Assembly (NCBI GenBank): GCA_029265715.1 | Contig: JAJUGZ010000037.1 | Location: 1-35,334 of the forward strand | Direction of reading: 5' to 3' | DNA from: Bacteroidota bacterium | GTDB taxonomy: Bacteria; Bacteroidota; Bacteroidia; Bacteroidales; Prolixibacteraceae | DNA: 35,334 nt | Shown: positions 18,314 through 21,300 of the stretch, one piece after another | Layout: each line of letters starts with the position of its first letter | How positions within the stretch are numbered: position 1 is the stretch's first letter | The notes under the pieces: model-generated | Told to the model about the DNA's origin: nothing | Database searches by the model: none | Seen by the model: the letters and a program-made list of their open reading frames with translations, nothing else | Position numbers and translations under genes: made by a program

Positions 18314-21300
18314 ATGAATATTCCCAGCAAGTACAACCCCGCTGAAGTAGAAGACAAATGGTATAAATACTGGATGGACAAAGGGTTTTTCCATTCAGTT
18401 CCCGACGAACGCGAGCCCTACACCGTTGTAATCCCGCCGCCCAATGTGACCGGCGTGCTTCACATGGGACATATGCTGAACAATACCATTCAGGATATCT
18501 TGACCCGCCGCGCCCGCATGCTGGGTAAAAACGCCTGCTGGGTACCGGGAACCGATCATGCTTCGATTGCCACCGAAGCCAAAGTAGTTGGAAAACTGAA
18601 AGACCAGGGAATCTCGAAATTCGACCTGACCCGCGACGAATTTCTGAAGCACGCTTGGGAATGGACGCACAAACATGGCGGCATCATCCTGGAACAATTG
18701 AAAAAACTCGGCGCTTCGTGCGACTGGGACCGTACTGCCTTCACCATGGACGAGCCCCGAAGCGAATCGGTAATCCGCGTGTTTGTCGATCTGTACAACA
18801 AAGGATTGATCTATCGCGGCGTTCGTATGGTAAACTGGGACCCGGCTGCCAAAACAGCCCTGTCTGACGAAGAAGTAATCTATAAGGAAGTACAGTCAAA
18901 ACTATATTACCTAAAATATAAAATTGAAGACGAGGCCCCCCTTAGTCCCCCCCAAGGGGGGAAACAGAGCCCCAAATACCAGACAGCGAGAAATTCTTCT
19001 TATCATTTATTAAAAGATTTGGCAGAAGAAAGAAAAAAACAATCAACTGATGCAGAAATTATTCTTTGGGAATATTTAAGTGGTAAAAAATTAGAAGAAT
19101 ATAAATTTAGAAGGCAACATGTCATCGACGAATTTATTGTTGATTTTGTTTGCCTGAAAGAAAATCTCATTGTAGAAATTGATAGAGAATATCATGGCAA
19201 GCCGGAAATTCAGGAAGCAGATAAACTAAGAACTGAAATATTAGAAAGTTTAGGTTACAGAGTAATCCGGTTCACCAACGAAGAAATTTTAGGCAATATC
19301 GACGGTGTACTTGAACGTATATTGATTGCACTTAAAACTCCCCCTTCGGGGGATGGGGGGCTTTTTGTGACCATCGCAACCACCCGACCGGAAACTATTC
19401 TGGGCGACACTGCCGTTTGTGTAAACCCGAACGACCCGCGTTTTGCTCATCTGAAAGGCAAACGCGTGCTGGTCCCGCTGATCAACCGTTCGATCCCGAT
19501 CATCGAGGATGAATATGTTGACATGGAATTCGGGACCGGCTGTTTGAAAATCACGCCGGCCCACGATGTGAACGACTACGAAATCGGGCTGCGCTACAAT
19601 CTTCCCAGTATCGACATTTTCAACGACGACGGCACACTGAGCGAGAAAGCCGGACTTTTTGTCGGAGAAGACCGCATGGTTGTCCGCGAAAAAATCATGG
19701 TCGAACTGGAAAAAGCAGGCAATGTAGCCAAAGTGGAGGATTATGTGAACAAGGTTGGTTTTTCTGAGCGCACCCATGTTCCAATCGAACCAAAACTTTC
19801 GGTCCAGTGGTTCCTGAAAATGGAAGAACTGGTGAAGCCAGCACTCGAAAATGTGATGAACGATACCATCATGTTCCATCCGCCGAAATTCAAGAACATT
19901 TACCGTCATTGGATGGAAAACATCAAAGACTGGTGTATCAGCCGCCAGTTGTGGTGGGGCCACCGTATTCCGGTGTGGTATATAGAGGCCCCCTCTAACT
20001 CCACCGAAGGGGGAGAACAGTTCCCCTCCCAAGGAGGGGTCAGGGAAGGCTCTTTTGTAGTTGCTGCAACTGAGGAAGAAGCCAGAAAGCTTGCCGTCGA
20101 AAAATTCCCCTCTTTGCGAGGGGTTAGGGGAGGCTTCTCCCTCAAACAGGACGAAGATGTTCTCGATACCTGGTTCTCGAGCTGGCTGTGGCCCATCTCC
20201 GTATTCGATGGTATTCGTTATCCGGATAATAAAGAAATCCAATACTATTACCCGACCAACGATCTGGTAACCGCCCCGGATATTATTTTCTTCTGGGTCG
20301 CCCGGATGATCATCACCGGATATGAATACCGCCAGCAATATCCATTTAAAAATGTCTATTTCACCGGGATGGTCCGCGATAAGTTGCGCCGGAAAATGTC
20401 GAAATCACTGGGTAATTCGCCCGATCCGCTCGACCTGATCGCCACTTACGGAGCCGATGGCGTCCGCGTCGGCATGCTGCTTTGCTCGCCGGCCGGTGGC
20501 GATTTGCTCTTCGACGAGAGCCTGCCTCAACAGGGGGCCGGTTTTGTAACCAAAATATGGAACTCATTCCGTCTGGTAAAAGGCTGGCAGGTTGATAACA
20601 GCATTCCTCAGCCGGAACATTCACGCATCGCGATCGAGTGGTTCCGTCAGAAATTCAGCCAGGTAATCGAACAAACCGACGATCATTTCGACAAGTTCCG
20701 CATTTCGGATGCACTGATGAGTGTTTACACAACCGTTCGCGACGAGTTCTCCGGATGGTTGCTCGAAATGGTGAAACCGGCTTACCAGCAGCCCATCGAC
20801 GGCAAAACATACAGCGAGCTCGTTGAGATATTCGACGAAGTGCTGCGCTTTTTGCACCCATTTATGCCGTTTGTCAGCGAAGAAATCTGGCAGTACCTGA
20901 AAGAACGCAAAGACGGCGAAAGCATCATGATCAGCACCTGGCCCAAATCAACGGGGTTCAACGAAACATTCATCCAGCAGTTCGAAGATGTAAAAGAAGC
21001 CATCGCCGGATTACGCACCATCCGTACAAAAAATAACATCCCGAACAAAGACCAGATTGAACTGGCCGTGATTCCGGGCGACAAAGGGTATGCCCCGGAA
21101 TTCAACCCGGTCCTGGTAAAGATGGGCAACCTTTCGGCCCTGAACGAGGTGTCGGAAGAAGTAAAGCTGGCCGCTTCGTTCCTGGTTAAATCAACCACCT
21201 TCTTCGTGCCGCTGGGCGGGAAAGTGGATATGGAAGAAGAGCTGAAAAAACTTCAGTCCGAACTGGATTACGCCAAAGGGTTTCTGGCCTCGGTTATGAA

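Follow-up and report, generated by a model that had tools for sequence, protein, structure and literature searches.

How does a complete nuclease domain come to lie inside an essential enzyme, and by what means might it have arrived there? This question is raised by the valyl-tRNA synthetase gene (valS) of a Bacteroidota bacterium of the family Prolixibacteraceae, in contig JAJUGZ010000037.1 of GenBank assembly GCA_029265715.1. The stretch analysed, positions 1 to 35,334 of the forward strand, is referred to here as the window (35,334 nucleotides), and its genome as G000. A sequence-only reading of the window had noticed that its ValS has 1037 residues where relatives have about 870, and that a 144-codon insertion ahead of the TTRPET editing motif encodes a DUF559 (Vsr-like, PD-(D/E)XK) domain without breaking the frame; it suggested that this is a mobile element, its cargo being translated within the host protein. 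The follow-up analysis described here points to a selfish element, a homing-type nuclease with hairpin ends, that is probably read through unspliced in loops of essential enzymes.

The nuclease insert of ValS

The ValS frame opens with a Met codon at 18314, continues uninterrupted to 21424, and is the sole ValS among the matches listed for its own genome (E up to about 1e-21). Its synthetase family matches are split, one stretch lying on either side of the DUF559 insert, which replaces a loop of a few residues upstream of the TTRPET motif. The remarkable length of the protein is borne out by relatives with an empty site, in which ValS has about 873–880 residues. The 144 insert codons (18935–19366) include neither a stop nor a Met in the ValS frame; stops number 11 and 12 in the remaining frames. 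The profile search that had been proposed identifies the segment as a complete DUF559 domain: Pfam PF04480 matches residues 234–340 at E 3.1e-32 (111.1 bits, against a curated cut-off of 20.6), spanning profile positions 4–108 of 109. The in-frame DUF559 domain in ValS is thereby confirmed. The difference in base composition needs correction in one part, as the surroundings have the expected G+C content (51% in the rest of ValS), whereas the 28% given for the insert is reached only in some 150-base windows; the insert has 37% overall and the nuclease core 32%. An assembly error at 18935–19366 is unlikely, because eight other loci among the 30 best-scoring ValS loci have the nuclease at the same place.

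Relatives of the insert were collected from many genomes, and among the fetched loci there were 159 domain-bearing frames, of which 138 had at least 260 residues; removal of 11 loci duplicating others gave 127 in-frame copies. The four residues first picked out as candidate active residues stand in highly conserved columns of these copies (Asp277, Glu288 and Asp290 in 127/127 each, His294 in 125/127), and correspond to the Asp, Glu-x-Asp and His of DUF559 that are taken here to be catalytic. Omega was 0.07–0.16 in three pairs of window-type nucleases; among the other 26 pairs listed, 21 gave 0.05–0.22, four had saturated dS, and one near-identical pair gave 1.03. These mostly low values suggest purifying selection on the nuclease.

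Structure prediction agrees with the profile. The nuclease core was modelled by AlphaFold2 with a mean pLDDT of 86, and the hits of a Foldseek search with this model include 3hrl, an endonuclease-like protein (E 2.7e-6), and 3r3p, which is the homing endonuclease I-Bth0305I (E 4.5e-5, TM-score 0.61/0.76); Vsr itself (1vsr) is weaker at E 0.13. A profile search found the same two proteins, 3hrl at 1.2e-27 and I-Bth0305I at 1.1e-6, and nothing else at E up to 1. The insert is thus predicted to carry a catalytic domain of I-Bth0305I type, and presumably cleaves DNA. The full-length ValS model is poor (pTM 0.41) and was used only for linker confidence and insert placement; it has low-confidence linkers at residues 207–230 and 343–349, with the insert falling between predicted strands 188–204 and 351–356.

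Two familiar ways of residing in a conserved gene were considered and rejected. Neither the Pfam nor the NCBIfam matches of ValS (E up to 0.001) include an intein family. An intein starts with Cys or Ser and ends in Asn, followed by Cys, Ser or Thr; by eye these junction residues are absent, the insert starting APLSPPQGG. As for a group I intron, the stretch 18200–21600 matches nothing in Rfam (E up to 1), and the frame is continuous.

Hairpin ends

The C/G-rich inverted repeats that were said to bound the insertion are a pair of hairpins (Table 1). A scan of the window for pyrimidine-stem hairpins of at least five pairs, at least four of them G-C, found four in all 35,334 bases, and all four lie in ValS: two flank the nuclease, and two are in short inserts further downstream that are missing from the consensus of 35 aligned ValS of relatives. 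Most ends of the collected elements have the same make-up: a box on the outside, AGCCCC or GGGGCT, together with a hairpin whose 5' arm is pyrimidine. Such a hairpin is present to the left of 108/124 in-frame inserts, to the right of 108/124, and on both sides of 95/124, compared with 9 of 627 single control windows; free-standing DUF559 copies have both in 11 cases out of 20 (three of the 127 in-frame inserts and one of the 21 short-frame copies were dropped from this count, being too near a contig end).

The stem sequences differ widely among elements. Within an element, the left hairpin and the reverse-complemented right one nonetheless agree at 0.738, compared with 0.613 for shuffled partners and a mean of 0.683 for partners shuffled within the same site, 0/1000 shufflings being as high in either case. 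This likeness fits terminal inverted repeats that evolve together, and imperfect hairpin ends matching within the element are what would be looked for in a classical transposon.

Elsewhere in the window's genome there are further pairs of such ends that lack a nuclease; two of these, for instance, are on contig 135. Within the family, the pattern ACTCCCCCNNNGGGGGAG occurs in 30/140 genomes and its reversed control in none. Hairpins of ACTCCCCCNNNGGGGGAG type elsewhere in the genome were counted by hand, with the inserts' own ends excluded, and were found in 17/30 genomes with a ValS/IleS-type insert versus 9/110 without (Fisher p 4.5e-8); the same comparison inside the genus gave 8/10 versus 5/13 (p 0.09). 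Empty and filled sites, compared by eye, indicate that the host loop is variable and that a few residues are apparently replaced. Direct repeats of about 40 bases, again judged by eye, flank the free-standing DUF559 genes at two other loci (L086 and L114); the repeats include or adjoin hairpin-type ends, as if the gene lay between two copies of a short element.

Host genes and distribution

In Bacteroidota, about 18 gene families unrelated to one another have the same domain in frame, with similar ends (Table 1); the sample leans towards copies related to the window's insert, which was the starting point of the search. Some of the inserts in methylase genes (L078, L081, L083, L085, L222 and L225, with L081 and L225 assigned to this group by clustering) lie in type ISP, HsdM and Eco57I-like genes, and several have similar hairpins. 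In the window's family, relatives of the insert (E up to 0.001) are present in 94/140 genomes, mostly as stand-alone genes, and in an even sample of the phylum they were found in 156/395 genomes at E up to 1e-15. The closest relatives are long frames: 32 of the 33 places of at least 120 bits in the family search are in frames of at least 378 residues, the exception being a ValS with a broken frame (genome G072), and the 16 places of at least 150 bits in the phylum search are all in frames of at least 425 residues, with stand-alone copies among the next scores.

A scan of named species confirmed at least 473 loci, and the best 80 of these, which make up the named-species set, are all from Bacteroidota or its subgroups except for one Limnohabitans metagenome bin. 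Carriers in cultivation include Maribacter luteus, in RecG, and Marinilabilia salmonicolor, in IleS. The insert of that pseudomonadotal bin (L136), in RecG, groups with those of Flavobacteriaceae, and the contig is probably a contaminant. Phage records gave two matches to the insert and plasmid records 37, all below 60% identity.

At the ValS site, the nuclease is found in 9 of the 61 genomes searched with the long ValS as query (several others have ValS fragments only). In the 30 best-scoring ValS loci, as in the 30 for IleS, insert-bearing genes come first because of their score, and the figures for 61 genomes give the less biased picture. Of these 30 ValS loci, nine have the nuclease, four have short hairpin-coded inserts, two of them with a right-type end alone and two with both ends minus the nuclease, and 17 have a plain loop, so that the insert is far from universal among relatives. 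IleS carries the nuclease at one fixed place in 6/61 genomes, the IleS of the window's genome being empty, and RecG in 2/79 genomes around G266, a centre chosen for having one. Where it could be measured, the insert length is a multiple of three in ValS (22/22), IleS (27/27) and RecG (19/19), which is no evidence in itself, as the loci were picked for long frames; two ValS loci and one RecG locus were unmeasurable.

Some sites are less tidy. In the ValS of G072 (L108) the frame of the insert is broken and the C/G runs at its ends are shorter; the nuclease lies in a different frame from ValS, although both host halves share one frame, which could reflect an assembly error or real decay. At four sites without the nuclease (L231 and L232 in RecG, L278 and L283 in IleS) the loop is several residues longer than in most relatives, and these long loops are possible scars of lost elements.

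Table 1. The ValS element and its parts in the window, with other genes carrying the domain
Feature	Position	Strand	Remarks
valS, valyl-tRNA synthetase, 1037 aa	18314..21424	+	Single frame with three in-frame inserts; PRK05729 match in two stretches
Whole element, AG(G)CCCCCC...GGGGGGCT	18933..19362 (about)	+	Limits set by eye from the terminal repeats
Left hairpin, TCCCCCC-CAA-GGGGGGA	18946..18962	+	Outer box AGGCCCCCC before it; end read as APLSPPQGG
Nuclease core, DUF559 / PD-(D/E)XK (Vsr-like) domain	18968..19336	+	From profile and structure prediction; the insert lacks Met
Candidate active-site codons	Asp277 19142-19144; Glu288 19175-19177; Asp290 19181-19183; His294 19193-19195	+	From conservation
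Right hairpin, TCCCCC-TTC-GGGGGA	19339..19353	+	Outer box GGGGGGCT after it (19355-19362); end read as TPPSGDGGL
Short nuclease-less insert of 66 bases in the ValS frame	19986..20051	+	Left-type and right-type end; full hairpin 20023-20039
Single right-type end in the ValS frame	20105..20135	+	Hairpin 20107-20123
Internal inserts, synthetases			ValS, IleS (two sites), LeuS (two sites), MetS-type; family scans of representatives
Internal inserts, DNA and repair genes			RecG, UvrA, RecB-like helicase; family scans of representatives
Internal inserts, metabolic genes			MetH, urocanate hydratase, methylmalonyl-CoA mutase, alpha-xylosidase, DegT-type aminotransferase; family scans
Internal inserts, others			MazG, ABC-F protein, three kinds of restriction-modification methylase gene; family scans
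M23 peptidase gene			Domain between a part without family match and the peptidase domain
Terminal fusions, examples			HisD, PRAI, GATase_5 protein, SpoU

Descent of the insert and of its hosts

The same insertion present in all relatives through vertical descent would have spoken against mobility, and this is not what the host tree displays. In a ValS tree of 21 rows, comprising the window's genus and the neighbouring G024, a single clade of nuclease-bearing genes is rejected by the approximately unbiased (AU) test (p 5.6e-57), as is a single clade of the five ValS with the commoner nuclease type (p 6.7e-62). On a wider tree of 37 rows, nuclease presence requires 10 changes compared with a shuffled mean of 12.3, with 61/500 shufflings as low, and is not clearly clustered (two partial sequences, L076 and L108, were dropped from the host tree).

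Third-base differences of insert and host allow their histories to be compared pair by pair. The window's ValS and that of G021 differ by 0.20 in the insert and 0.42 in the host (p 2.3e-5), whereas G021 and G001 differ by 0.48 in the insert and 0.21 in the host (p 7.9e-6); the simplest reading would be that in G021 one insert has taken the place of another, or was gained anew, at this site. Among the strongest cases is a RecG pair of one genus, with 0.02 in the insert versus 0.18 in the host (p 1.6e-7). In 20 hand-picked close pairs the insert is less diverged at p<0.001 in four and the reverse holds in none, a HisD pair among them having 0.26 in the insert versus 0.53 in the host (p 5.4e-6). 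On this measure the insert is shown to have moved independently of ValS in the window's lineage, at least sometimes.

The nucleases themselves were placed in a tree of 148 sequences, which are short and weakly resolved. They group by host gene: changes of host-gene label number 38 on this tree, compared with a shuffled mean of 104.7, and stand-alone copies fall mostly outside the ValS, IleS and RecG clusters.

Weighing the explanations

The reading preferred here, and judged to be probably correct, is that of a selfish homing-type nuclease element read through unspliced in loops of essential enzymes. The element would consist of a Vsr-type (DUF559) endonuclease between two hairpin ends, seated in a loop of the ValS editing domain. 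With no splicing at the RNA or protein level, the nuclease would form an additional domain of the translated protein, joined to it by Pro/Gly-rich linkers encoded in the hairpin ends; the host enzyme would provide its expression, and the essentiality of the host would guard it from frameshifts, loops adjoining conserved motifs being places that would tolerate a guest domain. Homing would proceed by cutting of the same site in an element-free allele, followed by repair, in which the element would be copied across. New genes would be reached only rarely, with the hairpin ends as the likely substrate; such moves would start lineages at other sites, and loss would leave single hairpin ends or plain loops. 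The fusion protein is presumably active and uncleaved. The original proposal of a mobile element with its cargo read through in the host protein is supported; that cutting by the nuclease drives its spread, we infer. Of the two options then offered, a selfish endonuclease surviving within an essential gene and a new domain fusion, the analysis separates them in part, favouring the selfish one because there are about 18 unrelated host families and because the history of the insert departs from that of its host.

A number of results weigh against this reading. Nuclease and host distances correlate at ValS, IleS, RecG, LeuS and MetH (Mantel r 0.47–0.76), and AU tests on 72 of the 148 nucleases reject neither a single clade of all ValS inserts (p 0.67) nor one of the IleS inserts (p 0.70); identities and a quick tree had suggested a jump between ValS and IleS, but these same tests leave it unsupported. 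It looks as if sites tend to hold their own long-lived lineages, with much of the descent vertical and accompanied by loss. On the 21-row host tree, a clade of the three ValS with a window-type nuclease is not rejected (AU p 0.13). Of the same-site pairs that fell within the limits of the test, 225 in all and mutually non-independent, 218 have no insert distinct from its host at p<0.001; the insert is less diverged than the host in four and more diverged in three. Identity between G021 and G001 dips beside the insert, recovering about 30 codons upstream and about 60 codons downstream, which resembles a co-conversion tract, yet similar dips occur elsewhere in the gene, and homologous recombination without any nuclease could have moved the insert. 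Near-identical copies at two sites of one genome were not seen, although no systematic search for them was made. The absence of a start codon is true of the window's insert but cannot be called a general trait of the inserts: in 75/127 in-frame copies a Met lies in the stretch from 12 residues ahead of the domain up to the catalytic Asp. Finally, the window's own copy may be weakened, to judge from its Arg291 (19184–19186) beside the active site, where 124/127 in-frame relatives have Gly.

The main rival, partly compatible with homing, is end-driven transposition, in which the DUF559 protein would act like a transposase on its own hairpins and the short elements would be non-autonomous, as repetitive extragenic palindromes (REPs) are to REP-associated tyrosine transposases (RAYTs). 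Such a mechanism would fit the frequency of paired hairpins relative to controls, the match of left and right ends, the nuclease-less end pairs both elsewhere in the genome and in ValS itself, the many unrelated target genes, and the excess of hairpins elsewhere in insert-bearing genomes. That excess is weaker within the genus, kinship explaining part of it, and 29/124 in-frame inserts lack one or both hairpins under the rule used; a target duplication is not definable because the host loop is variable, and recurrence at the same site and clustering by site suit homing better than random transposition. This rival is considered unlikely. Less credible again is the idea that some other enzyme, for instance a Y1 (RAYT) transposase, mobilises the hairpin repeats and the nuclease is a passenger. 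A Bacteroidetes-specific Y1 subclass whose genes are flanked by atypical hairpins has been described (PMC6006769), Y1_Tnp matches occur in 22/22 insert-bearing genomes tested, and by hand count the hairpin pattern is present in nine of the 110 family genomes lacking a ValS/IleS-type insert. However, when Y1 loci of the 22 genomes were inspected (24 of 30 were measured and six dropped), a C/G hairpin stood on both sides of 0/24, upstream only of two and downstream of three, compared with 2/96 control windows, so that a Y1 transposase was rejected as the obvious mover; in addition, a passenger would not be expected to retain its active-site residues and a low omega, as this nuclease does. The window's genome has one Y1 transposase match (L115, on contig 73), which lies near a different palindrome, GCCCTTTCAGGGC.

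That the domain has instead been domesticated, being useful to the host synthetase by acting, for example, on tRNA or DNA, would agree with the low omega and with the correlation of nuclease and host distances. Mitoribosomal proteins, which can contain Vsr-like, RNA-linked domains, are also among the weak Foldseek matches of the predicted core. Yet the hosts, which range from tRNA synthetases to RecG, MetH, UvrA, alpha-xylosidase and urocanate hydratase, have no obvious common substrate, close relatives manage without the domain, and in the window's lineage the insert was exchanged independently of the host gene; domestication is held to be improbable. A fossil, in which one ancient insertion per site was inherited vertically with many losses and has no present mobility, is a somewhat better candidate but still a doubtful one. 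It draws on the Mantel correlations at the five sites tested, on AU tests that permit one origin per site for ValS and IleS, and on the majority of same-site pairs without an insert–host difference, and is opposed by the insert–host conflict in the G000–G021–G001 triangle and in two RecG pairs, by the scatter of nuclease-bearing ValS among empty ones, and by the intact active-site residues.

Relation to known elements

If the selfish homing-type element is accepted, its nearest relatives by fold and profile are the EDxHD homing endonucleases, typified by I-Bth0305I, with which it shares residence in conserved genes and a patchy distribution at recurrent sites. These endonucleases have been described with group I introns, whereas the insert has no sign of an intron or of splicing, and I-Bth0305I is described in a review as having a long DNA-binding region (PMC3943268), where the insert is a single small domain within its host protein. 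According to the same review, it is by associating with self-splicing sequences that homing endonucleases can enter conserved coding sequence and leave its product unharmed (PMC3943268).

Inteins likewise place a nuclease in frame in essential, conserved proteins, patchily and at recurrent sites. The insert differs in having 144 residues in total, no intein family match, no Asn/nucleophile junction, and no sign of leaving the protein.

Rickettsia palindromic elements (RPEs) resemble it in another respect, since both are short palindromic DNA found in frame in unrelated protein genes, a comparison that goes by description. A review of miniature inverted-repeat transposable elements (PMC10969869) gives RPEs a length of about 150 bp and a conserved peptide as their product, and its passages on them mention no nuclease. 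The element described here has one, and has nuclease-less short forms besides. The REP/RAYT systems also place hairpins around the gene of a DNA-processing enzyme, with short copies elsewhere, and pair them with a Y1 enzyme, as recounted in two papers (PMC3733652, PMC6006769). In REP/RAYT systems this enzyme is a Y1 HUH transposase; here it is a PD-(D/E)XK-type nuclease domain, and Pfam finds no HUH domain in the insert. Stand-alone DUF559 or YcjD-like proteins (PF04480, PRK09767) belong to the same family as the insert and have copies in the same genomes.

The element thus joins two known kinds, the homing-type nuclease and the in-frame palindrome. No description of DUF559 inserts of such a kind was found in the literature searched, the coverage of which was partial, so that earlier publication is possible. 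That they form a new class of mobile element across Bacteroidota, in which a hairpin-ended homing-type nuclease becomes a permanent, tolerated domain and gives rise to hairpin-only, non-autonomous derivatives, is a tentative proposal that falls a little short of likely.

Implications

Were this proposal true, the element would stand to the in-frame palindromes of Rickettsia as a counterpart that carries a nuclease, and to inteins as one that does not splice. If confirmed, it would represent another route for a selfish gene into an essential gene, and a source of new protein domains and linkers, as well as offering a system for studying how enzymes tolerate a guest of 140 residues. It would also account for unusually long essential enzymes in Bacteroidota, and would provide a candidate driver for the short C/G palindromes found in this phylum.

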